A stretch of DNA of 64,000 nucleotides from Pseudooceanicola sp. (GTDB lineage Bacteria; Pseudomonadota; Alphaproteobacteria; Rhodobacterales; Rhodobacteraceae): assembly GCF_029213205.1 (NCBI RefSeq), contig NZ_JARGNH010000003.1, positions 124,001-188,000 of the forward strand, read 5' to 3'. Positions 9,290 through 57,084 of the stretch are shown here, in pieces (positions within the stretch are counted from its first letter, which is position 1; each line of letters begins with the position of its first letter). The notes under the pieces are model-generated. The model saw only the letters and a list, made by a program, of their open reading frames with translations. It ran no database searches and was not told the origin of the DNA. The position numbers and the translations under genes were made by a program.

Positions 9290-10882
9290 CTAGATATCCA
9301 GGCCCTCAACCTCTTGCATCATGTCGGCGACGTTTTCCGCGATCATCATCGTAGGCGCATTGGTGTTTCCGGCAATTAGATTCGGCATGATCGAGGCATC
9401 GACGACCCGCAGGCCCTGAACGCCACGCACCCGGGCTTGCGGATCGACAACCGACGCAGAATCCTGCCCCATCCGGCAGGTTCCGACCGGGTGATAGATG
9501 GTCTCGGCGCGGGCTCTGATATCGGCGATCAGCGCGGCATCCGATTGCAGGGCCGCGCCGGGCACGATTTCGGCCTTGATCCGCAGCGCCAAGGCAGGCG
9601 CGGCCATGATGCGCCGGGCGATTTTCAGACCGCTCAGCAGGGTTGCGATGTCGTCGGGGTGGCTCAGATAATTGGCCTCGATCTTCGGTGGTGACAATGG
9701 ATCGGCGCTGGCCAGCCGGATACGGCCACGGCTCTTGGGGAGGAGGTTGCAGACATGCAGGGTAATCCCGTAGCCCCAGGAAACCCGGCGCCCGTGGTCC
9801 CGCAGATAGGCCGGAATGAAATGGAACTGCAGGTTCGGGCGGGGCTGGGATGGGTCGGATTTGGCGAACCCCCCGGCTTCGGCCACGTTGGAGGTGAGTT
9901 CACCGGTATTTCTGGTCATGAACTGCCAAGCGGCCTTGATCGCGCGCGGCAGAAAGCGCGGCGCCAGACCGATGGGTTCGCGGCCTCTGGTGGAGGACAT
10001 GACGCTGATATCGAGGTGATCGGCCAGGTTCTTGCCGACCTCGACGGCGTCGTGAAGCAGCGGGATGCCATGTCGCGCCAGCTCGGCGGCCGGACCAATG
10101 CCGGACAACATCAAGAGCTGCGGAGAATTCACCGCACCGCCCGACAGGATCACCTCGCCGCCCGGGTTTAGCCTCAGCACTCGCCTCCCGAGCTGCACGC
10201 CGATGGCACGCCGGTTTTCGAAAAGGACGCGTTCGACCTGCGCCCCGGTTTTGATCGTCAGGTTGGACCGCTGCCGGATCGGATCAAGAAAGGCCCGGGC
10301 GGCGCTGAGACGTTTGCCGTCGCGCTGGGTGACCTGATACAGGCCGACACCCTCCTGTCGAGCGCCATTGAAGTCGGGATTTTCGGGAAGCTGGCAGGTG
10401 ACACCCGCCTGCACGAAGGCGCGGCTCATCGGGTTCACCGCGCGCAGATTGCTGACCGAAAGCGGGCCGTTGGTGTTGTGATGCGGGTCCGTGCGGGCGG
10501 TGTTGCCTTCCATCCTCAGGAAAAGGTCGCGCACGCGCTGCCAGGACCACGCCGGGCCAGCGGAGGCGGCCCAGCCGTCGTAATCTGCGGGATGGCCCCG
10601 GATGTAGATCATCGCGTTGATCGAACTGGACCCGCCCAGGGTCTTGCCCCGCGGCCAATACAGGCGGCGATCATTCAACGCGGCCTCGGGGGCGGTGGCG
10701 TAGCCCCAATTCAGCTTTTTCATGCGTGCCAGTATCGCCAGCCCAAGCGGCAGGTGGATCATCGGGTTCCAGTCGCGTGTGCCAGCCTCCACCAGGCAAA
10801 CCCGCGTCTTCGGATCCGCCGAAAGCCGGTTTGCCAGAACGCAGCCCGCCGATCCGGCGCCGACGATGATATAGTCATACAT
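9290..10882 (-). CDS. GMC-family FAD alcohol dehydrogenase (AlkJ/choline dehydrogenase-like)
   Basis: This 530-residue glucose-methanol-choline family flavoprotein has the FAD dinucleotide motif GAGSAG near residue 8, the GMC signature [19 protein letters not shown] (about residues 80-100) and the catalytic HPVGTCRMG segment near the C-terminus. The length and sequence type match AlkJ and choline dehydrogenase. Enzymes of this class pass electrons to the respiratory quinone pool. Its context fits AlkJ: it lies three bases downstream of an aldehyde dehydrogenase, in a cluster with AlkB and a P450, so the likely substrates are medium- or long-chain alcohols. Choline oxidation is the alternative, but no betaine genes are nearby. 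Confidence 0.85.
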
Positions 10883-10885
10883 GCG

Positions 10886-12298
10886 CTATCCCAGAAATCG
10901 CTTGGCAAGGCCGATCAGCCGTTTCACCCGCGCGGTATAGGGCGGAAACAACAGAGGGAGCGACGAGAAGTGATTGGTGAGAATGGCGCGTTCGTGGCTG
11001 AAGGCGCGGTAGCCGTCCTGGCCGTGAGACGCGCCAATGCCAGAGGAATTCACCCCGCCAAACGGCAATCCGGTGTGAGAAAAATGCGCCATCGTCAGAT
11101 TGACGCCAACCCCGCCAGAGCTGGTGGTGGCGATGATATGGTCAATGCGTTCGGATGACTTGTCAAAGACATAAAGGGCCAGCGGTTTGGGCCGGGCATT
11201 GATCCGCCGGGTCACCTCGTCGATATCGTCATAGGTCAGTATTGGCAGGATCGGGCCAAAGATTTCTTCTTGGTCGATCTTCATCTCCGGGGTGATCGCC
11301 TCGATCAGAGTCGGGGCCATCCGCCGCTCTTGCCGGTCGCTGCCGAGGGTGACCTGTGCGCCCTTTGCAATGGCATCGCGCAGCAGCCCGGACAGGCGTT
11401 CGGCGTGGCGATCATTGATGATCCGTGCAAGGTGCGGGCTCTTGGCGCCCGTGCCATAGGTCCTGGCGATCCGGTCGCGCAAGGCTGCCAGGAAATCATC
11501 CTTGACCGACGCGTGGACGAACACATGGTCAGGGGCGATGCAGGTCTGTCCGGCATTGGCGAATTTACCAAAAGCGATCCATGATGCTGCACGTTTCAGG
11601 TCGGCGTCGGGCCCGACGATCGTTGGTGACTTGCCACCCAGTTCCAGCGTGATCGACGCCAGTGTTTTTGATGCGGCAGCCATCACGATCTTGCCCACAG
11701 CGGGGCTGCCGGTGAAGAAGATGTGGTCAAAGGGCAGGGCCAGCAGGGACTGCGATGCCTCCACACCGCCTTCGACGACTGTCACCAGCTCGGCCGGGAA
11801 GGTGTCTTTGATCAAACGCGCCACCACAGCCGATGTCGCCGGTGCCATTTCGGACGGTTTGATGATGGCGCTGTTGCCGGCGGCTAGGGCCGAGACCAAA
11901 GGGCCGATTGCAAGGTTGAACGGATAGTTCCACGGCGCGATGATCAGGCAGACACCTCGCGGCTCTGACCGCACCCGCGCCCTGGTGCCGAAGGTCACGA
12001 GGGTTGGCGCAACCCGGCGCGGACGCATCCAGCGCCGCAGCTGACGTGAGGCGTGGCGGATCTCCTGCATTACCGGCAAGACTTCCGTCAGGATCACCTC
12101 GGTCTCGGGTTTGCCGAAATCCGCAGCCATGGCGGCGACCAGCGCGGATTCGTTGACCCGGATGGCGGCAGCAAGGCGGTCCAGTGCCGCCCGGCGTTCG
12201 GCCAGGCCAAAGGTCAGCCGACGCGTCACAATCCCCGCGCTTTGCGCGGCAAAGGCCGCGGTTGCGCGCTCAGTGAGAGGTGCGGTGATATCTGTCAT
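10886..12298 (-). CDS. Aldehyde dehydrogenase (coniferyl/fatty aldehyde type, AlkH-like)
   Basis: This 470-residue class 3-like aldehyde dehydrogenase oxidises aldehydes to acids with NAD(P). Visible motifs are the cofactor-binding APWNYPFNL and FTGSPAVGK segments, the general-base Glu in ITLELGGKSP and the catalytic Cys in NAGQTCIAPD. The C-terminal basic tail (ARVKRLIGLAKRFLG) could associate with the membrane, as in fatty aldehyde dehydrogenases. It is followed after three bases by the GMC alcohol dehydrogenase, so the pair would convert alcohol to aldehyde to fatty acid. A degenerate copy of the TTGAC-N4-GTCAA operator lies about 67 bases upstream (12365-12378). Confidence 0.88.
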   Translation of the reverse strand: MTDITAPLTERATAAFAAQSAGIVTRRLTFGLAERRAALDRLAAAIRVNESALVAAMAADFGKPETEVILTEVLPVMQEIRHASRQLRRWMRPRRVAPTLVTFGTRARVRSEPRGVCLIIAPWNYPFNLAIGPLVSALAAGNSAIIKPSEMAPATSAVVARLIKDTFPAELVTVVEGGVEASQSLLALPFDHIFFTGSPAVGKIVMAAASKTLASITLELGGKSPTIVGPDADLKRAASWIAFGKFANAGQTCIAPDHVFVHASVKDDFLAALRDRIARTYGTGAKSPHLARIINDRHAERLSGLLRDAIAKGAQVTLGSDRQERRMAPTLIEAITPEMKIDQEEIFGPILPILTYDDIDEVTRRINARPKPLALYVFDKSSERIDHIIATTSSGGVGVNLTMAHFSHTGLPFGGVNSSGIGASHGQDGYRAFSHERAILTNHFSSLPLLFPPYTARVKRLIGLAKRFLG

Positions 12299-12539: not shown

Positions 12540-13262
12540 TCAGATGCCAGTGCCGGTCATTGGTTTGTGCATTTCGATCCAGCGCCCGGATGACCGCATC
12601 CGGCCTTCGCTTTCCAGACGTTTCATCAGGCGGGACAAGGTTTCCGCCTGAACCCCCAGAATATCGGCCAGATCCTGACGCGAGATCGGCAAACGCATCC
12701 GCCGGATGTCGTGTTTCTCTGTGCCGTGGCTGGCCATCAAGTCGTCCAGCAACTGCGCCAGCCGGTCCTTGTTGGACGAGCGGGCCGCGTCCTGAATGCG
12801 GTCGTGGCAGCGGTCGAGCTCATCGGCGCAGTGTATGGCCAATCCGGCGAGAACCTCGGGACAGGCCCGCAGGACATTCTTGGCGTCACGATGTGCGACA
12901 ATGCAAACCCGCGACGGCAACAGGGCCTGAGCTTCGGTTCTGTGATCCCGCTCGGTCAGAAACGCGCGGTAGCCGATCAGCTCGCCAGGATAGGCCAGCC
13001 GCAGCAGGCTTGAAGACCCGTTCGGGGCAAAGCTGCGGATGGCGATCAGCCCTTGCGAAACACAATAGACCCCGTCGCTGGGCGCGCCCTGGTGATAAAG
13101 CACGTGTCCGGCATCCAAATTCCGCCGGGTAAAGCTGCGATTGAGGGTTGAGATGTTGCCGCCAGCAACAGGCCGCCACAAGCTGTGCTCGTAGAAACTG
13201 CAATTTGCGCAGGGATGTGCCTCAATCGCCATTATGTAATCCGGCCACACCTCGTGCAGCAT
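12540..13262 (-). CDS. Crp/Fnr-family transcriptional regulator, Fnr-like with incomplete cysteine set
   Basis: This 240-residue protein has an N-terminal cyclic-nucleotide-fold sensor, a dimerisation helix and a C-terminal winged helix-turn-helix (about 175-230). The recognition helix AETLSRLMKR carries the Glu-x2-Ser-Arg residues that read TTGA half-sites in Fnr. Cys18 and Cys21 form a CxxC and Cys120 matches the position of the central Fnr ligand, but the third N-terminal cysteine (C29 in E. coli Fnr) is missing; further cysteines are at 67, 134 and 145. A second in-frame ATG at 13232 would still keep the CxxC. It lies divergent to the P450/alkB operon, with Fnr-type sites between. It probably senses redox or oxygen state; the ligand is unproven. 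Confidence 0.85.
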   Translation of the reverse strand: MLHEVWPDYIMAIEAHPCANCSFYEHSLWRPVAGGNISTLNRSFTRRNLDAGHVLYHQGAPSDGVYCVSQGLIAIRSFAPNGSSSLLRLAYPGELIGYRAFLTERDHRTEAQALLPSRVCIVAHRDAKNVLRACPEVLAGLAIHCADELDRCHDRIQDAARSSNKDRLAQLLDDLMASHGTEKHDIRRMRLPISRQDLADILGVQAETLSRLMKRLESEGRMRSSGRWIEMHKPMTGTGI

Positions 13263-13321: not shown

Positions 13322-13335
13322 ATGATCTGAATCAA
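13322..13335. promoter_or_regulatory. Fnr-box-like site (ATGAT-N4-ATCAA) in the regulator/P450 divergent region
   Basis: ATGATCTGAATCAA matches the Fnr/FnrL consensus TTGAT-N4-ATCAA at nine of ten positions. If bound as a class II activator (centre at -41.5) it would put transcription starts near 13287 for the regulator and near 13370 for the P450, both just upstream of the respective start codons. Assignment is by sequence only. Confidence 0.45.
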
Positions 13336-13411: not shown

Positions 13412-14890
13412 ATGACCAGACTGGCCAAAACGCCCGACCCTGATCGGTCGGCTTGCAAGAAGGTCATCCGCTTGTCTGACACCAACGCTATAAAGCCGCT
13501 GCCGCCCAAGCCGGCATCCCGGGCCGGGAATGTCTCGCTCTGGGCCTATTTCAAACTGTTCAAAAGGGATATCCTTTCGGCGCAACCGGCGCGACTTTAC
13601 CACGCCTGGATGGCCGAATTCCGGACACCTTTCTTTCGCTCCTATTTGTGCAATGACCCGGAGCTGGTCAAACTCGTGCTGCGCGAACGACCAAGGGATT
13701 TCCCCAAATCCGAGCGCATCCGCACCGGGTTAAAGCCGCTGTTGGGCGAGTCGATCTTTATTTCCAACGGCGCGCTCTGGGAGCATCAGCGCCGCATCAT
13801 CGACCCGGCCTTCGAGGGCGGGCGCCTGCGCAGCGTTTTCCCGGCGATGTGGGACAGTGGCGTTGCCGTGGTCGACCGGTTGCGCCCGCTGGCCGATGGC
13901 CGCCCGGTCGAGATCGAGGGCCATGCCAGTCATGTGGCGATGGACGTGATCTTTCGCACCCTGTTTTCGGTGCCGGTCGAGCATGAAATCGCCAGTGCCG
14001 CCTTTGCCACCTTCCGCGAACATCAGCAGGAACAACCGGTGGCCAACCTGTTCTCACTGTTGCCGTTGCCAAAGTGGTTCCCGCGCTATCATTCGCGCCG
14101 CACAAGGCGAACCGCCGCCATCATTCGCGGGCTCATCGCCGAGCTGACCGAGACCCGTGCGCAAGAGATTTCCGCAGGCCGCGCGCCAGATGATCTTGCC
14201 ACCAAGATCATGACCACGCCCGATCCTGAGACCGGTCAGTGTTTTGAAACCGACGAGATGATTGACCAGGTCGCGATCTTCTTTCTTGCAGGGCATGAAA
14301 CCTCGGCTGCGGCGCTGGCCTGGGCGCTCTATCTTCTGGCCATCAACCCCGACTGGCAGGACCGCCTGGCCGCCGAGGCGCAGGCGTCGTTCGATCCTGA
14401 AAAGATCTATTTCTCGACCCTTGGCAAGCTGCGCCATTCGCGCGCAGTGTTCCGCGAAGCGATGCGGCTGTACCCGCCGGTGCCGATGTTCGTTCGCGAA
14501 GCGACCTGCCCCGAGCGGCTTCGCGAGCGCGATGTGCCCTCGGGATCGCAGGTGATCCTCAGCCCCTGGCACCTGCACCGCCATGACCGCCTGTGGGTGC
14601 GGCCCGATGAATTCGATCCCGGCCGCTTTGACACCCCGAATGGCAAGGATTGTCTGCGCAACGCCTATATCCCGTTTTCCGCAGGTGCGCGGGTCTGCCC
14701 CGGGTCGGCCTTTGCCATGGCCGAGGGGCCGCTTTTGCTGTCGATGCTGGTGCGGGCCTACCGCTTTGAGCCGGTAGAAGGCCGCGTGCCGATCCCCGAG
14801 GCGCATCTCACCGTGCGCGCCCGCGACGGGATCCATCTGCGCCTGATCCCGCGTGACACCGACCGTTTAACAAACAAGGCCATGCAATGA
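13412..14890 (+). CDS. Cytochrome P450 monooxygenase
   Basis: This 492-residue P450 has the I-helix oxygen motif AGHETSA, the K-helix E-x-x-R in FREAMRLYPP, and the heme-binding loop FSAGARVCPG with the ligand Cys near residue 429. The AGHETS type and the LYPPVP segment resemble CYP4-like fatty acid or alkane hydroxylases more than CYP153. It needs a ferredoxin and reductase, which are not encoded in the window. It overlaps alkB by four bases (ATGA), so both are made together, implying two different oxygenases for related substrates. I assign no CYP family number. The operator TTGAC-N4-GTCAA sits just before its start. Confidence 0.9.
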   Translation: MTRLAKTPDPDRSACKKVIRLSDTNAIKPLPPKPASRAGNVSLWAYFKLFKRDILSAQPARLYHAWMAEFRTPFFRSYLCNDPELVKLVLRERPRDFPKSERIRTGLKPLLGESIFISNGALWEHQRRIIDPAFEGGRLRSVFPAMWDSGVAVVDRLRPLADGRPVEIEGHASHVAMDVIFRTLFSVPVEHEIASAAFATFREHQQEQPVANLFSLLPLPKWFPRYHSRRTRRTAAIIRGLIAELTETRAQEISAGRAPDDLATKIMTTPDPETGQCFETDEMIDQVAIFFLAGHETSAAALAWALYLLAINPDWQDRLAAEAQASFDPEKIYFSTLGKLRHSRAVFREAMRLYPPVPMFVREATCPERLRERDVPSGSQVILSPWHLHRHDRLWVRPDEFDPGRFDTPNGKDCLRNAYIPFSAGARVCPGSAFAMAEGPLLLSMLVRAYRFEPVEGRVPIPEAHLTVRARDGIHLRLIPRDTDRLTNKAMQ

Positions 14891-16023
14891 CAAAATCACC
14901 CGCCGCCGCCCTCAGGGCCTGGCCTTACTGGCTGACCCTGACATTCGTTCCGCTGGTGGTTCTGGCGCTTGGCCAGGGCGGCTGGACCATCCTTCTGATC
15001 CCTGCCTATGGCTGGCTGCTGATGCCGCTGCTCGACACATTGCTGGGCAAGAACCTGACCAACCCGGATCCCGACACGCCCGACAGCGAGCTGTTTTGGT
15101 TCCGCCTGCTCACCTGGATCTGGTTTCCGATCGAATTCTGTCTCGTCTTCGGGGCGATCTGGGCGCTGACCCGCTGGGACGGGTATTCGGGTCTGGAAAC
15201 CTTTGGCATCATGTTCGGCATCGGCGTCACCACCGGCACGGTCGGGATCGTCTATGCCCATGAATTGTTTCACAAACCCGCAAGGTTTGAGCGCGGCCTG
15301 GGCGATTTGCTCATGGCGATGGTGCTCTATGGTCATTTCCGCACCGAGCATCTGTTGGTGCATCACCCGCATGTCGGCACCCCGCGCGATACGGTGACCG
15401 CGCGCTATAATGAAGGCTTCTTGCGGTTCTTTCCCCGCGTCCTGCGGCAAGGCCCGGGGTCTGCGTGGCGGGCCGAGCGGGCGCTGCTGGCGCGGCGGCG
15501 ACGCGGCCCCTGGCATCCGGCCAACCCGATTTTCAAATACGCCGCGTTGCAGATCACCTTTCTTGGGCTTGCCTATGGTATCGGTGGCTGGACCGGCGTC
15601 GGTCTCTTTGTCCTGCAGGCGTTTCTCGCCGTTTGGCAGCTCGAACTGACCAATTATGTCGAACATTACGGGCTGACCCGGAAATACCTGGGCGACGGCA
15701 AATACGAACCGGTGCGCGCGCATCATTCCTGGGATTCGGCGCATCGGGTTTCGGGTCTGTTGCTGATCAATCTTCAGCGCCACGCCGATCACCATCTGCA
15801 CCCGCTGCGCCGCTTCCCGTTGCTGCAAATCTTTGATGAAACCAAGGCGCCGCAATTGCCCACAGGCTATCCGCCGATGACCTCGATGGCGATGATCCCG
15901 CCGCTTTGGCGTCGTCATTTCAATCCGCGCGTGCGCGCCTGGCGCAGGCAGTTCTATCCCGAGATCGAGGATTGGGCGCCCTACAAGCAGATGGCCTTTC
16001 CGCCGCCACGCGGTGCCGGCTGA
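14887..16023 (+). CDS. alkB: Alkane 1-monooxygenase AlkB
   Basis: This 378-residue integral-membrane di-iron hydroxylase oxidises the terminal carbon of n-alkanes, using rubredoxin as electron donor. The three histidine boxes and the AlkB signature are present: HELFHK, EHLLVHH, NYVEHYGL and LQRHADHH. About six membrane helices occur, two pairs of them before the first histidine box. The start overlaps the P450 stop. No rubredoxin gene is visible in the window, so the electron partner must be encoded elsewhere. The alcohol product would go to the GMC dehydrogenase and the aldehyde dehydrogenase upstream. Only seven bases separate its stop from the convergent DUF2478 gene. Confidence 0.96.
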   Translation: MTKSPAAALRAWPYWLTLTFVPLVVLALGQGGWTILLIPAYGWLLMPLLDTLLGKNLTNPDPDTPDSELFWFRLLTWIWFPIEFCLVFGAIWALTRWDGYSGLETFGIMFGIGVTTGTVGIVYAHELFHKPARFERGLGDLLMAMVLYGHFRTEHLLVHHPHVGTPRDTVTARYNEGFLRFFPRVLRQGPGSAWRAERALLARRRRGPWHPANPIFKYAALQITFLGLAYGIGGWTGVGLFVLQAFLAVWQLELTNYVEHYGLTRKYLGDGKYEPVRAHHSWDSAHRVSGLLLINLQRHADHHLHPLRRFPLLQIFDETKAPQLPTGYPPMTSMAMIPPLWRRHFNPRVRAWRRQFYPEIEDWAPYKQMAFPPPRGAG

Positions 16024-16029
16024 GAAGTC

Positions 16030-16542
16030 TCAGTTCAACCGCGCGGCGGCCATGCACCATGCGCTGATCGCGGCGGCATCGGCGGGCAGAGGCTCGGCCA
16101 GCCCGTCGGTAAATTCCTCGAAGCCTGTGTGGCTGGACCGGCTCAGCCCCACGACGATGGGAAGGCCAAGCGCCAGCGCCCGACCGATCACATCGCGAAA
16201 CCCGCGCCCTGCCGCCTCTTCGGGGCCGAACTTGTTCAGGATGAACACCTGCGCCAGCGACAGATCGCCGATTTCGACCTGCGCCACGGCGTTGGCAATT
16301 GCCCCTGGATCAAGCCGACAGGCGTTTGAGCCTTTGCCCAGATACTGGGTGATCTTGATCACCGGCCCATCCGGCAGCACCCGCACCTTCATGTCACAAC
16401 CGTTGTCAAAGGCGCTTTCATACGAGAGGTCGCGGACAATCCCGGCGGCAAAGACCCGCTGGCGGGCCAGCAGGGCCGCAGTTTCGGCCAGAATCCGGTC
16501 GGTTTCGCCGGGCTCCATGGCGTTGACAAAGGCGATGTTCAC
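16030..16542 (-). CDS. DUF2478 domain protein
   Basis: This 170-residue protein fits the DUF2478 family: an N-terminal nucleotide-fold start (MNIAFVNAM), the C-D-M-x-V-R-V-L-P-D-G-P segment, the GKGSNACRLDPGAI stretch and the NKFGPEEAAGRGFRDVI motif. The N-K-F-G-x-x-E-A-x-G-R-G-F block resembles the base-recognition region of P-loop NTPases, but no Walker A is visible. It is the last gene of the ubiT-ubiU-ubiV operon, 12 bases after ubiV. The family has no established function. Location suggests an accessory role in anaerobic metabolism or quinone synthesis, which is inference. Confidence 0.75.
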   Translation of the reverse strand: MNIAFVNAMEPGETDRILAETAALLARQRVFAAGIVRDLSYESAFDNGCDMKVRVLPDGPVIKITQYLGKGSNACRLDPGAIANAVAQVEIGDLSLAQVFILNKFGPEEAAGRGFRDVIGRALALGLPIVVGLSRSSHTGFEEFTDGLAEPLPADAAAISAWCMAAARLN

Positions 16543-16554
16543 GGCAGTTTCCTT

Positions 16555-17472
16555 TCAGGTTGTGGAAGAGGTCCGAGCGGAGTCGCCCGACCATTCGGCG
16601 CCGCGCGTGCCGGTCAAGAAACCGTCGCTGAGCGGAATTCCCGGTTGCATGGTTTTCAGCGCCCCGGCGACCGCGCCGCGCTCGATCTGGCCGTCGATGC
16701 GCGCACGATAGAGCGCGCAGACCGCCGCGAAATCGCCGCTATGAGGCGACAACCGCACCCGCGTGACACCCGTTTCCCTGAGCCGTTCAATCTGGTGATC
16801 GGCGCAGGCAAAACTGTCTGACAGGGTCTGCACGCCGTTTATCGCCAGAAAATCCTGCCCCTCCAGCGTCGCCAATTTCAGCCCGTCTGGATCATCCTCG
16901 CAGGCGAACCGGCAATTGTCCTTGCTGTGCCCGTGCAGGCGCGCGTGATAGCAGCGCCCCGAAATCGCCAGCGGCACCCGGCCATGGCCCCAGACCTCGA
17001 TCGCCACGCCAAGATCGCGGCCCAGGTGCGCCAGCCGCTCCACCGAGTCCAGCGGCAGTTCTGGCGGCAGGCAGATGCTGGTTGCGCCACGCCCGGCCAG
17101 CCAGCTCAGGGTGCTGTCGTTATAGACATTGACCAGCGGCCCGACGGAAAAGCCCGCGCCTTCAGGCAGGTAGGCCAGCATCGTCAGGTCGTTGATTTCG
17201 ACCTCGACCCCGGCCTCGATCAGTTCGGCGCTGAGCTTGCGTTCGCGTTTCAACGTGATCAGCGCCAGCGAGGTCACCGCCACCGCCTTGCCCGCGCCCT
17301 GCAGCGCCTCGATCGCGGCCGGGATGCGGTCCTGGTAAAACGGCAGGCGTTTGGAACAGACGAGCTCACCCAGAACAACCCGTTCCACCGGTGCCTCTGC
17401 CAGGGCCGTATAAAAGGCGCTCCACTCTTCGGGTTTCCAGAAAAACTGGTTCGGCCCAACTGTCAGTTTCAT
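16555..17472 (-). CDS. ubiV: UbiV, O2-independent ubiquinone hydroxylation component (U32 family)
   Basis: This 305-residue protein belongs to the peptidase U32 family but acts in ubiquinone ring hydroxylation without oxygen, as a complex with UbiU. The start at ATG 17472 (MKLTVGPNQFFW) has a GGAGG ribosome site. Cluster cysteines are visible: one early in GELVCSKR and three in GRCYHARLHGHSKDNCRFAC, matching the arrangement in E. coli UbiV that binds a 4Fe-4S cluster. It starts four bases after the ubiU stop. Prephenate is the known oxygen donor for this pathway in E. coli. Expression is expected under low oxygen. Confidence 0.92.
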   Translation of the reverse strand: MKLTVGPNQFFWKPEEWSAFYTALAEAPVERVVLGELVCSKRLPFYQDRIPAAIEALQGAGKAVAVTSLALITLKRERKLSAELIEAGVEVEINDLTMLAYLPEGAGFSVGPLVNVYNDSTLSWLAGRGATSICLPPELPLDSVERLAHLGRDLGVAIEVWGHGRVPLAISGRCYHARLHGHSKDNCRFACEDDPDGLKLATLEGQDFLAINGVQTLSDSFACADHQIERLRETGVTRVRLSPHSGDFAAVCALYRARIDGQIERGAVAGALKTMQPGIPLSDGFLTGTRGAEWSGDSARTSSTT

Positions 17473-17476
17473 GGCG

Positions 17477-18454
17477 CTACCTCCAGGTTTTCTTATAGGC
17501 CCCGGCGGTGGCGGCCTGGCCTTCGGTGAGGCTGGCCAGCATTCCCTCGGGCATCGGCAATCCTGCCGCCTGCGCATCGACCGCGGCGCGAAAATTGCGC
17601 ACCACCTTGGCCACATAGGCGCGCGACCGTTGCCGCCCCTCGATTTTCAGCGCGGTAACCCCGGCCTCGGCCAATTGCGGGATCAAGGTCTCGGCGTTGA
17701 GGCTGACCGGGTCCTCAAACAGGTGGCCGGTCTTTTCCCCGGCCTGGAAACACCCTTTGCAAAGGGTCGGATAGGGCGCTGGCTCTCCGGCCGCGACCTG
17801 GTGGATCGTATACCCGCCCAGCCTGGCCGAAAGCGCGCCCGCTTCGTCGTGATAGTCAACATGGCTCGCCGGGGAACAGACCCCGTTCATGTTGGGTGAT
17901 TGTCCGGTGGCATAGGACGAGAGCATACAGCGCCCCTCGGCCATGACGCATAGGCCACCAAACACGAACACCTCGGTCTCGACCTCGGTTTCGGCGTTGA
18001 TCGCGGTGATTTCCTGCACCGAGAGCACCCGCGGCAGCACCACCCGTTTCACGCCAAAGGCACGGGCATAGAAATTGATCATGTCGGCATTGGCGGCGGC
18101 CGCCTGCACCGACAGATGGCGGCGCAGGTTCGGGTGATGCTGCGCGGCATGGGCCAGCAGCCCCAGATCGGCCAGAATGACCGCATCGGCGCCCGCGCTT
18201 TCGGCATCGGCGAGGGCGCGATGCCACAGGGGTTCTGCACCGGCGCGTGGAAAGGTGTTGATCGCCACCAGCACCTTGGCGCCGTGATCATGGGCAAAGG
18301 CGATGCCGTCGCGGATCTCGTCACGATCAAAATTCAGCCCCGGGAAATTGCGCGCATTGGTCTCGTCGGCAAAACCGCAATAGACCGTATGCGCCCCGGC
18401 CTTGACGGCAGCGCGGAGCGAGGCCGGCGTACCAGCCGGGCAGACGATCTCCAT
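17477..18454 (-). CDS. ubiU: UbiU, O2-independent ubiquinone hydroxylation component (U32 family)
   Basis: This 325-residue U32-family protein is the partner of UbiV. I start it at ATG 18454 (MEIVCPAGTPASLRAAV), which overlaps the ubiT stop as TAATG; an ATG two codons upstream is also possible. Cysteines for the 4Fe-4S cluster lie in GGLCVMAEGRC, MNGVCSP and TLCKGC. Typical U32 segments are DETNARNFPGLNF and LKIEGRQRS. Together with UbiV it replaces the oxygen-dependent flavin hydroxylases when oxygen is absent. Order and coupling ubiT-ubiU-ubiV-DUF2478 suggest one transcript from the promoter region near 19050. Confidence 0.94.
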   Translation of the reverse strand: MEIVCPAGTPASLRAAVKAGAHTVYCGFADETNARNFPGLNFDRDEIRDGIAFAHDHGAKVLVAINTFPRAGAEPLWHRALADAESAGADAVILADLGLLAHAAQHHPNLRRHLSVQAAAANADMINFYARAFGVKRVVLPRVLSVQEITAINAETEVETEVFVFGGLCVMAEGRCMLSSYATGQSPNMNGVCSPASHVDYHDEAGALSARLGGYTIHQVAAGEPAPYPTLCKGCFQAGEKTGHLFEDPVSLNAETLIPQLAEAGVTALKIEGRQRSRAYVAKVVRNFRAAVDAQAAGLPMPEGMLASLTEGQAATAGAYKKTWR

Positions 18455-18996
18455 TACCATCCGTCGATCTCCTCATGCCGGGACAGGGCCACGCCGGTTC
18501 TGGCTTCGGCCAGCGCGATCAACCGCTTCACCTGCGCGGCAAACGGCCCCGACATGGCCTGCGCCTCTGCCGAGAGGTCCAGTTCGGCATCGTCAATCGC
18601 ATTGCGCAGCGCCAGCACGGCGGCGGTGTCGCCCTCGATCAGCAGATCGCGTGAGAAAAACAGCGCGTCGCCATCATAGGTGCCATGCACCATGCCCAAC
18701 AAACCGGCCAGAGGTCCGGCGATGCGGGCATCTCCGCGCAACTTCCGGCGCGATAGATAGAGCCGGGGTTTGCCGCCGCGCGGTTCCAGCAGAATCGAAA
18801 TCGGAAGGTCGGTCGGATCCAGCACAAAGCGTGTCTGATCATAGCGGCCAAGCCTGCGAAACATCCCGGGATGACGCTGGGCCAGGTGCCGGGCAAACCC
18901 GGCAAGCGCCATCGAAAGTGGGGTCACAGGCACCCAGCGCAGCGCCAAGGCCGGCAAGCGCGGGAACAGGGGCAGATGAACCGATTGAGATGACAT
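18454..18996 (-). CDS. ubiT: UbiT, SCP2-domain ubiquinone biosynthesis accessory factor
   Basis: This 180-residue protein has an SCP2 sterol-carrier-type lipid-binding domain (about residues 30-130). UbiT is the anaerobic counterpart of UbiJ and is thought to carry the isoprenoid intermediates to the enzymes. I chose ATG 18996 (MSSQSVHLPLF) because GGAG lies at the right distance upstream; the frame stays open nine codons further. It is first in the operon and overlaps ubiU. The Fnr-type palindrome at 19072-19095 is 87 bases from its start, which would place a class II promoter start near 19042. Confidence 0.9.
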   Translation of the reverse strand: MSSQSVHLPLFPRLPALALRWVPVTPLSMALAGFARHLAQRHPGMFRRLGRYDQTRFVLDPTDLPISILLEPRGGKPRLYLSRRKLRGDARIAGPLAGLLGMVHGTYDGDALFFSRDLLIEGDTAAVLALRNAIDDAELDLSAEAQAMSGPFAAQVKRLIALAEARTGVALSRHEEIDGW

Positions 18997-19071
18997 AAGG
19001 GCAGCTCCGTTTCGGGGAGGCAACGCCTGAGGCGGCGGCGCTGCAGCGGTCCTAACGGGTTTGACCGGTTC

Positions 19072-19095
19072 AAAACTTGACGATGGTCAAGTTTT
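19072..19095. promoter_or_regulatory. Extended palindrome with TTGAC-N4-GTCAA core between ubiT and ubiD
   Basis: Ten-base arms AAAACTTGAC and GTCAAGTTTT flank the spacer GATG; the core TTGACGATGGTCAA is 19077-19090. It is the longest of the three copies in the window and lies between the divergent ubiT and ubiD-like genes. Class II spacing would give starts about 19042 (minus) and 19125 (plus), both upstream of the genes and, on the plus side, just upstream of the AAAAGGA ribosome site. Fnr-type control of anaerobic ubiquinone genes is biologically expected. Confidence 0.65.
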
Positions 19096-19238: not shown

Positions 19239-20642
19239 GTGCGTCATCAGATGACGGCCGTTCATCGTGCGGTGCTGGAAAGCGGCGGCCCGATCCTGCG
19301 CTTTGACAATCCGGTTCTGGATGACGGAACCCGCAGCAAGATGCCGGTGGTGGTGAACCTTTTCGGAAGCACCGAACGGGTCGCTGCCGGGCTTGGCGTG
19401 GCGCCGGAGGGGCTGGACGATCTGGGGGCGTTCCTGGCCGCCTTGCGCGCGCCCAGCCCGCCCGAGGGCATGCGCGATGCGATGTCGCGCTGGCCGATGC
19501 TGAAGGCGGCCCTGGCGACACGCCCCAAGCTGGTGAAGAACGCGCTGGTGCAGCAGAACGTGATCGAGGATGTCGATCTGGCCCGCCTGCCGATCCAGAC
19601 CCATTGGCCGGGCGATGCCGGGCCGTTGATCACATGGCCGGTGGTTCTGACCCGCCCACACGACAGCAAGCCCGACGAGATTGGCCGCTATAACGCCGGT
19701 GTCTACCGCGCACAGGTGATCGGACGCGACCGGATCATCCTGCGCTGGCTGGCCCATCGCGGCGGGGCCGCACATCATCGCAGCTGGCAAAAGGCGGCGG
19801 CACCGATGCCCGTCGCAATTGCCCTTGGGGCAGATCCCGCGACAGTGCTTTCGGCCGCGCTGCCACTGCCCGAAACCATCAGCGAGCTCAGCTTCGCCGG
19901 GGTCTTTTCCGGCGCCCGTCCGCGCCTTGTTCCCGCCAGAACCGTGCCGCTCATGGTGCCAGCCGATGCGGAAATGGTGATCGAAGGCTGGGTCGATCCC
20001 GCCGAAACCGCCCCCGAAGGCCCGTTTGGCGATCACACCGGGTATTACAACGCGCCCGCCGCCTTTCCGGTGATGAGTGTCAGCGCCCTGACCACCCGCG
20101 ACGATCCGCTTTATCTTTCCACCTATACCGGCCGCCCCCCGGATGAACCGTCCATCATCGGCGAGGTGTTCAACCGGCTGGCCTTGCCGGTGATCCGGGG
20201 CCAGATCCCCGAAATCCGGGATCTCTGGCTGCCACCGGCGGCCTGTTCCTATCGCATGGCGGTGATTTCGATCGACAAGCGGTATCCCGGACAGGCGCGT
20301 CGCGTGATGATGGCGCTGTGGGGAATGTTGCCGCAGTTCAGCTATACCAAGATGATCATCGTGGTCGACGGTGACATCGACCCGCGCAACTGGGATGACA
20401 TCGCCTGGGCGCTGGCCACGCGGATGGACCCGGAACGCGATGTGATGATCGTGGAAAAGACACCCATGGACTATCTCGATTTCGCCTCGCCCGTGGAAGG
20501 GCTGGCCGGAAAGATCGGCATTGATGCCACCAACAAACTTGGCGCCGAGACAACCCGCGACTGGGGCCAGGTGATGCAGACCGCCCCGGAGGACGCGGCA
20601 TTTGCCGCCGATCTTCTGGCGCGCCTGAAAGGAATGACATGA
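19239..20642 (+). CDS. ubiD: UbiD-family prenylated-FMN decarboxylase, start uncertain
   Basis: From GTG 19239 the product has 467 residues and is a UbiD-type decarboxylase: FGDHTGYYN, the substrate-site region DEPSIIGEVFNRLALPVIRGQIPEI and the D-x-D-x-R-x-W-D-D-I-A-W-A-x-x-T-R motif. However, family-like sequence (SLRAFLDWNAAQGDLVTIPDAVSV) continues in frame upstream to at least 19146, and the frame is open to a stop at 19113. A ribosome site AAAAGGA lies at 19131-19137, but no ATG, GTG or TTG occurs in frame between; the best-spaced codon is ATC 19146. It decarboxylates a prenylated hydroxybenzoate and uses the cofactor made by UbiX, whose gene overlaps its stop. Other UbiD substrates are possible. 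Confidence 0.88.
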   Translation: MRHQMTAVHRAVLESGGPILRFDNPVLDDGTRSKMPVVVNLFGSTERVAAGLGVAPEGLDDLGAFLAALRAPSPPEGMRDAMSRWPMLKAALATRPKLVKNALVQQNVIEDVDLARLPIQTHWPGDAGPLITWPVVLTRPHDSKPDEIGRYNAGVYRAQVIGRDRIILRWLAHRGGAAHHRSWQKAAAPMPVAIALGADPATVLSAALPLPETISELSFAGVFSGARPRLVPARTVPLMVPADAEMVIEGWVDPAETAPEGPFGDHTGYYNAPAAFPVMSVSALTTRDDPLYLSTYTGRPPDEPSIIGEVFNRLALPVIRGQIPEIRDLWLPPAACSYRMAVISIDKRYPGQARRVMMALWGMLPQFSYTKMIIVVDGDIDPRNWDDIAWALATRMDPERDVMIVEKTPMDYLDFASPVEGLAGKIGIDATNKLGAETTRDWGQVMQTAPEDAAFAADLLARLKGMT

Positions 20643-21199
20643 CCCGTATTGTTCTTGGCGTTTCCGGTGCTTCCGGGGCCGCGCTTGCATTGGCCACCGC
20701 GCGCCTTCTTGTGACTCTGGGCATCGAGATTGATCTGGTCGTTTCCCCGGCCGCCGAAAGGACCCTGCGCGAGGAATGCGGGGCCGGGGCATTGGCCGAA
20801 CTGACCGACCTCGCGGATCAACGACACGGGTCCGGCGATATTGGCGCGCGCATCGCCTCGGGCTCGGCTCCACTCGCCGGAATGATCGTCGCCCCCTGTT
20901 CGATGCGCAGCCTTGCAGCAATAGCCAACGGGCTTGATGACAACCTGATCACCCGCGCCGCCAGCGTGCAACTCAAGGAACGCCGCCCGCTGATCCTGCT
21001 GGCACGCGAGGCACCACTCACCCTTGCCCATCTGCGCAACATGACCGCCGCAACGGAAATGGGGGCGATTGTGCTGCCGCCGGTGCCCGCCTTTTACCTC
21101 AAACCGCAGGGCCTGAACGCGGTGGTTGACCAGATCGCGGCACGGGCCGTCGATCTGTTGCGGCTTGGGCCACAGGTGGCGCAGGGCTGGACCGGATAG
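20639..21199 (+). CDS. ubiX: UbiX flavin prenyltransferase
   Basis: This 186-residue enzyme joins dimethylallyl phosphate to FMN, making the prenylated-FMN cofactor needed by UbiD. The N-terminal FMN-binding motif GVSGASGAALALATARLL, the APCSMRSLAAIANGLDDNLITRAA region and the LARE-x-P segment are typical of UbiX. It overlaps the ubiD-like stop by four bases (ATGA), so both products are coupled. The gene pair lies divergent to ubiTUV, giving a compact set for making ubiquinone in the absence of oxygen. Confidence 0.95.
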   Translation: MTRIVLGVSGASGAALALATARLLVTLGIEIDLVVSPAAERTLREECGAGALAELTDLADQRHGSGDIGARIASGSAPLAGMIVAPCSMRSLAAIANGLDDNLITRAASVQLKERRPLILLAREAPLTLAHLRNMTAATEMGAIVLPPVPAFYLKPQGLNAVVDQIAARAVDLLRLGPQVAQGWTG

Positions 21200-57070: not shown

Positions 57071-57084
57071 TTGACGCCAGTCAA
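57071..57084. promoter_or_regulatory. Perfect TTGAC-N4-GTCAA operator before the small gene at 57123
   Basis: TTGACGCCAGTCAA shares exact half-sites and spacing with 13381-13394 and 19077-19090. It lies 38 bases upstream of the ATG at 57123 and about 270 bases upstream of the divergent etfB. The rest of the 56801-57122 gap shows nothing else clear. Confidence 0.55.

Follow-up and report, generated by a model that had tools for sequence, protein, structure and literature searches.

An overlapping P450–AlkB gene pair as a putative low-oxygen copy of a widespread two-oxygenase module of Rhodobacteraceae

We analysed a 64,000-nucleotide stretch of a Pseudooceanicola sp. genome (assembly GCF_029213205.1, contig NZ_JARGNH010000003.1, positions 124,001 to 188,000 of the forward strand; hereafter the window), in which a cytochrome P450 gene is directly followed by a gene for an AlkB-type membrane di-iron hydroxylase. 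On the basis of sequence comparisons, we consider it moderately probable that this pair is the coupled, low-oxygen isozyme operon of a P450/AlkB module that is widespread in Rhodobacteraceae. According to this model, most members of the family carry the P450 gene behind a gene for a hydrolase-like protein and alkB usually beside mutY, the two being unlinked and usually present or absent together. Strains also able to make ubiquinone without oxygen may have a second copy of both genes, joined as an overlapping two-gene pair. An FNR/DNR-type protein, possibly the product of the adjacent regulator gene, would bind a TTGAY-N4-RTCAA box, and falling oxygen would switch on the pair copy along with ubiTUV and ubiDX. 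As a result, two oxygenation steps could continue when oxygen is scarce. The pairing, the overlap, the paralogy, the boxes, the neighbours and the co-occurrence are seen in the sequences themselves. We infer activation rather than repression at low oxygen, and P450 and AlkB probably act on one lipid-like substrate.

Rhodobacteraceae are common in marine surveys. The alkB gene is generally taken as a marker of alkane degradation, as stated in PMC9526415. If the widespread AlkB, for which mostly no rubredoxin was detected, and the P450 indeed serve a non-catabolic pathway, alkB surveys would overcount degraders. The model also raises the question of why two O2-dependent enzymes would have been duplicated into the apparent regulon of an O2-independent quinone pathway.

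A conserved gene pair

The stop codon of the P450 gene and the start codon of alkB overlap as ATGA (Table 1), just as the first-pass annotation of the window had it. Its view of the two genes as a coupled two-oxygenase pair, which it proposed to look for in other Rhodobacteraceae, also holds in a broader comparison. In a scan for AlkB with one genome per species, from which the best 80 of 378 loci were kept, 45 of the 48 loci in which AlkB reaches about 69% identity have an intact P450 gene directly upstream on the same strand; the exceptions are L027 and L054, which have no P450 gene, and L044, where it is in pieces. A second set of 219 genomes drawn across Rhodobacteraceae (the family sample) contains an AlkB of at least 71% identity in ten genomes, all with the P450 gene immediately upstream, and the next-best AlkB reaches 64%. 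These ten are the genome of the window itself, eight that also appear as scan loci, and G177. Adding L119 from the family sample to the 45 scan loci gives, apart from the window, 46 pair loci, of which 37 allow a 4-nt overlap (36 ATGA, one GTGA); this recurrence argues for conserved coupling rather than chance.

Eight duplicate loci were removed before the promoter-box, overlap and neighbour counts; near-identical, non-independent loci are L049 to L053, the two loci L011 and L015, and the group L022, L025, L026 and L028. One contig, L051, is labelled as an Acidovorax metagenome-assembled genome (MAG), and its P450-AlkB-ubi region is close to that of the Rhodobacterales MAG L052, which is probably a binning error. 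A description of such a P450–AlkB pair was not found in open-licence PMC papers, a coverage that leaves most subscription papers outside.

At E ≤ 0.001, the only PDB sequences matching the window AlkB are the AlkB structures 8sbb and 8f6t, with which its histidine motifs line up in the alignment. The window protein shares the family, the histidine motifs and the EHYG motif with these alkane monooxygenases but differs in its FNR-type box, its coupling to a P450 and the lack of a fused or detected rubredoxin. The translated P450 contains AGHETS in the I-helix and the Cys-ligand motif PFSAGARVCPG, which places it in the P450 superfamily. Cytochrome P450 4B1, plant carotene hydroxylases, P450 3A4, cholesterol 24-hydroxylase and P450 BM3 are included in the best 60 of its 325 PDB matches, among which there is no recognised CYP153 (the CYP153 profile was not run). 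The first-pass label "CYP4-like" is only a loose fit, as the matches span several P450s besides 4B1. Pfam p450, AGHETS and the Cys-ligand motif are common to the window P450 and 4B1, the carotene hydroxylases and BM3. On the other hand, the window protein is a paralog of a Rhodobacteraceae P450 encoded behind a hydrolase-like gene that no Pfam profile matches, and it has no fused reductase.

For the P450, TTG 13472 is a more probable start than ATG 13412, albeit not a certain one. Several homologues have no possible start beyond 20–28 codons before a conserved anchor, 13472 lies 22 codons before it, and no more than 24.5 nt separate ATG 13412 from the centre of the FNR-type box. Some homologues, however, have an ATG 44–49 codons before the anchor, which counts against the TTG.

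Paralogy of pair and single copies

The Pseudooceanicola genome holds six P450 matches and three AlkB-like genes (100, 59 and 38% identity). Its second P450 is 65–67% identical to the pair P450 and is encoded after a protein of 416 residues that carries a GHSSG motif. A homologue of this hydrolase-like protein stands directly before the P450 in all 32 fetched unpaired loci of this P450 type, and AlkBs of 59–65% identity have mutY as a neighbour in 27 of 32 scan loci. In the AlkB tree, the pair sequences form one clade beside the single AlkBs (SH-like approximate likelihood ratio test, SH-aLRT, 100). The pair P450s arise within the hydrolase-linked P450s; that of L035 stands apart, and that of L059 groups with the pair sequences. 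Both trees were made by a quick method, and the very long outgroup branch of the P450 tree leaves its root unsure. Under a 95% rule for conserved columns, pair and single P450s show no fixed amino acid difference alongside 171 shared conserved columns, and the AlkBs show six alongside 129. So few differences fit with isozymes. At least one further match of each enzyme is present in eight of the ten pair genomes of the family sample. G080 has no further P450 besides the pair, and G059 has no further match of either enzyme; the latter is a MAG and also the source of L020, and its lack of further matches could mean that the pair replaces the single genes or that the assembly is incomplete.

The hydrolase-like protein (415/416 residues) gave nothing significant in PDB, Pfam and NCBIfam searches. 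At L090:4711-5961, a copy with the GHSSG motif and hydrophobic stretches precedes a single P450. A class-wide search recovered the protein in nine of 337 genomes, five of them Rhodobacteraceae. In three of the four outside genomes (L228–L230, from another alphaproteobacterial family) it likewise precedes a P450, and no AlkB relative turned up in the 15.5-kb stretches.

Two loci show unusual arrangements. In Rhodovulum bhavnagarense (L059:11928-13289), the gene for a pair-clade P450 directly follows the mutY-linked alkB but is encoded on the other strand. Lutimaribacter pacificus (L035:6592-11110) has four genes side by side, namely those for an AlkB of the single type (60%), the regulator, a P450 placed on a different tree branch and the pair AlkB. 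The separate tree position of this P450 might suggest an independent pairing, but because a 4-nt overlap persists in this locus, an exchange of the P450 body by recombination is equally likely.

FNR-type boxes

When scored for TTGAY-N4-RTCAA, the window contains three perfect boxes, compared with 0.16 expected: one before the P450 gene, one between ubiT and ubiD, and one near the etf genes (Table 1). Among 44 pair promoters (those of L013 and L034 are left out because the sequence before the gene is too short), 27 contain a perfect box and 31 a box with at most one mismatch. The corresponding regions of the single copies hold none that is perfect, neither the 28 single-AlkB promoters nor the 32 promoters of hydrolase-P450 operons, and each set includes one box with one mismatch. 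All 24 ubiT-ubiD regions have a perfect box (L019, where the genes are not adjacent, is left out). Shuffled sequences yield an expectation of 0.20 for 52 pair regions, duplicates included.

The recognition helix of the regulator reads ETxSR in the aligned rows that cover it. Sites similar to TTGAY-N4-RTCAA and an FNR-type recognition helix link the system to the FnrL/Dnr regulons of Dinoroseobacter shibae (PMC5398030). It differs from them in having two O2-consuming oxygenases as members and in the cysteine set of the regulator described below. The words "P450" and "alkane" do not occur in the main text of PMC5398030, supplements being outside the search, and D. shibae need not carry the pair. 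The third perfect box of the window is upstream of electron-transfer flavoprotein (ETF) genes (from 56962 down to 55116 on the minus strand) and of a small plus-strand open reading frame (ORF). In the D. shibae study, repression of etfAB was FnrL-dependent (PMC5398030).

Co-occurrence with oxygen-independent ubiquinone synthesis

UbiU (E ≤ 1e-60) is encoded in 41 of 42 pair genomes compared with 10 of 37 controls without the pair (Fisher p 8e-12). The comparison covers 42 of the 46 pair loci (L049, L051, L053 and L119 were left out), and the controls, like the 60 genomes of the rubredoxin test below, were picked by hand among those genomes of the family sample that have P450 and AlkB. In 38 of the 42 genomes UbiU exceeds the curated cut-off, and one of the other three matches is a fragment with stops; the sole pair genome without UbiU is that of L023. 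UbiU lies outside the fetched stretch in 20 of the 42 pair loci, yet it is present elsewhere in 19 of those 20 genomes. The linkage could be closer in some loci, because contig ends cut several stretches.

One may ask whether the pair, as an oxygen-requiring companion of UbiTUV, works within the ubiquinone pathway itself or alters the quinone tail. The near-complete genome co-occurrence, the shared boxes and the finding that 24 of 46 pair loci have UbiU inside the stretch that was fetched are compatible with this idea. Nevertheless, we regard it as very improbable: UbiU occurs without the pair in 10 of 37 controls, P450 and AlkB of this type are missing from 28 of 219 family genomes that presumably make ubiquinone all the same, and no such step was found in PMC11707229, whose main text contains neither "P450" nor "alkane". 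The pair resembles the UbiT/UbiU/UbiV pathway in its adjacency in the window, box type and genome-level co-occurrence, but its own chemistry is O2-dependent.

A weaker link is seen with denitrification. A nirK gene (TIGR02376) or a cytochrome-d1-family gene (PF02239, a family that covers NirS relatives as well) is present in 30 of 42 pair genomes versus 15 of 37 controls (p 0.007). Furthermore, some pair loci contain genes for NnrS, a ScdA-type hemerythrin, Rrf2, and a YjjI-like glycyl radical enzyme with a radical-SAM protein. These data would suit a scavenging role, in which the oxygenases would use up the remaining O2, or the P450 would deal with nitric oxide, during the switch to nitrate respiration. 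We deem this role quite improbable, since two substrate-oxidising enzymes seem a poor sink, the link is much weaker than that with UbiU, and neither nitrite-reductase family matched in the Pseudooceanicola genome. For the latter two reasons, denitrification was also rejected as the defining context of the pair.

P450 and AlkB of this type, counted at a best E ≤ 1e-100 with single and pair copies alike, are both present in 179 of the 219 family genomes. P450 is absent from 37, AlkB from 31 and both from 28, compared with 5.2 expected for joint absence (p 3e-24, kinship ignored). An RNase E tree was built for 77 of 80 selected genomes, among them 26 of the 28 double absences; the latter require 19 label changes, so that the double losses are scattered over the tree. 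On supported branches, nine independent comparisons were possible: AlkB changes together with P450 in 5.1 of them, in the opposite sense in 0.0, and stays unchanged in 3.9 (median p 0.06); in the reverse direction, 4.5 of 8 changes are joint (median p 0.125).

Proposed regulation at low oxygen weighed

A low-oxygen role would also be in line with data from Rhodobacter capsulatus, in which rcc02390, an "alkane 1-monooxygenase", was reduced by a factor of 7.5 in minimal medium and 3.5 in rich medium in aerobic cultures lacking the redox regulator RegA (PMC5359404). RegA also activates cydAB and most cbb3 genes, which appear in the same list (PMC5359404, Table 1).

Several observations speak against a low-oxygen isozyme operon. 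The RegA data are aerobic, and neither rcc02390 nor the monooxygenase gene of PMC5064897 is among the AlkB tree sequences. The adjacent regulator is missing in 21 of 46 pair loci; regulator and UbiU adjoin the pair in only about half of them, and 13 of 44 pair promoters have no box even when one mismatch is allowed. Ten of the 37 control genomes encode UbiU without the pair, and the Pseudooceanicola genome itself has no nirK or cytochrome-d1-family match (TIGR02376, PF02239). The kinship-aware test for joint loss, which is based on a weakly supported single-gene tree, is suggestive only.

It is important to note that classical FNR is active only at nearly no O2, whereas P450 and AlkB both require it. 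The oxygen-sensor cysteines of FNR comprise three N-terminal residues and one central residue. The regulator does not show this pattern: Cys18, Cys21, Cys67 and Cys120 are invariant in 28 of 28 aligned sequences, the third N-terminal cysteine is missing, and the score against the NCBIfam Fnr model is 64.5 bits (cut-off 228). This makes the signal perceived by the regulator uncertain; its unusual cysteine set may mark a variant iron–sulfur sensor.

Neighbouring genes, electron supply and substrate

Table 1. Features of the window in the surroundings of the P450–AlkB pair, and its FNR-type boxes
Feature	Position	Strand	Evidence and remarks
GMC oxidoreductase	9290–10882	−	local neighbour, not a conserved member
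Aldehyde dehydrogenase (ALDH)	10886–12298	−	local neighbour, not a conserved member
CRP/FNR-family regulator	12540–13262	−	divergent; adjacent and divergent in 25/46 other pair loci
Second box, imperfect	13322–13335	+	pattern scan; 1 mismatch, nearer the regulator gene
Perfect FNR/DNR-type box TTGACGACCGTCAA	13381–13394	+	pattern scan; before the P450 gene
Cytochrome P450	13412–14890	+	Pfam p450, 246 bits; probable true start TTG 13472
ATGA stop/start overlap, P450/AlkB	14887–14890	+	ORF coordinates
AlkB-type membrane di-iron hydroxylase	14887–16023	+	Pfam FA_desaturase, 113.9 bits; motifs HELFHK, EHLLVHH, NYVEHYG and LQRHADHH kept
DUF2478 protein	16030–16542	−	profile match; neighbour in 8/46 pair loci at the cut-off used
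UbiV	16555–17454	−	NCBIfam, above cut-off
UbiU	17477–18460	−	NCBIfam, above cut-off; within the fetched stretch in 24/46 pair loci
UbiT	18454–19023	−	NCBIfam, above cut-off
Perfect FNR/DNR-type box	19077–19090	+	pattern scan; between ubiT and ubiD
UbiD-family decarboxylase	19239–20642	+	Pfam/NCBIfam scan
Probable UbiX	20639–21199	+	named from position and sequence reading; follows UbiD in most ubi-bearing loci
Third perfect FNR-type box	57071–57084		pattern scan; between etfB and a small + strand ORF

The first-pass annotation had proposed that the cluster can finish a terminal oxidation; for alkanes or fatty acids, P450 and AlkB would hydroxylate the chains and the GMC and aldehyde dehydrogenases would finish the reaction. 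As the annotation also suggested, the two oxygenases may work in series or may divide the chain-length range. Indeed, the genes for the two dehydrogenases are close neighbours of the pair in the window, the AlkB histidine motifs are kept, and BM3 and 4B1, which are fatty-acid hydroxylases, are among the PDB matches of the P450. However, not one of the 46 other pair loci has GMC and ALDH genes next to the regulator, although at least 3 kb beyond the regulator are available in 20 of the 25 regulator-bearing ones. We thus rejected them as members of the pair cluster, and the proposed completion of the pathway is not supported. In favour of such a pathway, a distant ALDH-GMC gene pair (32–33% and 41% identity) is found beyond ubiX in two related species (L011 and L015), and a distant ALDH gene (31% identity) adjoins alkB in L038.

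The electron donor provides a further argument. AlkB is activated by rubredoxin, separate or fused, and a less explored class is fused to ferredoxin and its reductase; bacterial P450s usually draw on ferredoxin, as described in PMC8918992. Neither a separate nor a fused rubredoxin was found for the window AlkB: the Pseudooceanicola genome, which is 95.6% complete, has no PF00301 match, although a gene in the missing 4% is possible. Rubredoxin was found in only six of 60 P450+AlkB genomes and not in the other 54; it is present in one of ten genomes lacking both enzymes. In our model, electrons for both enzymes of the pair would come from a shared ferredoxin supply rather than from rubredoxin.

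Growth data point both ways. According to PMC5064897, the Rhodobacteraceae strain O3.65 has an alkane 1-monooxygenase gene and did not grow on four alkane substrates, which the authors tentatively ascribe to the lack of a rubredoxin reductase gene; Pseudophaeobacter arcticus, a relative, did grow on alkanes. Moreover, an occurrence in 179 of 219 family genomes appears wide for a specialised catabolic trait, and the pair tracks UbiU and FNR-type boxes. Taken together, we consider terminal oxidation of alkanes or fatty acids unlikely.

A more specific, tentative version of the isozyme model, which we regard as possible but less than even, is that a single endogenous membrane lipid is the substrate of both P450 and AlkB, which would work on it in series, in a ferredoxin-fed housekeeping pathway of Rhodobacteraceae that has been mistaken for alkane degradation. 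In facultative anaerobes, the coupled, FNR-controlled copy would then keep this lipid being made at trace oxygen.

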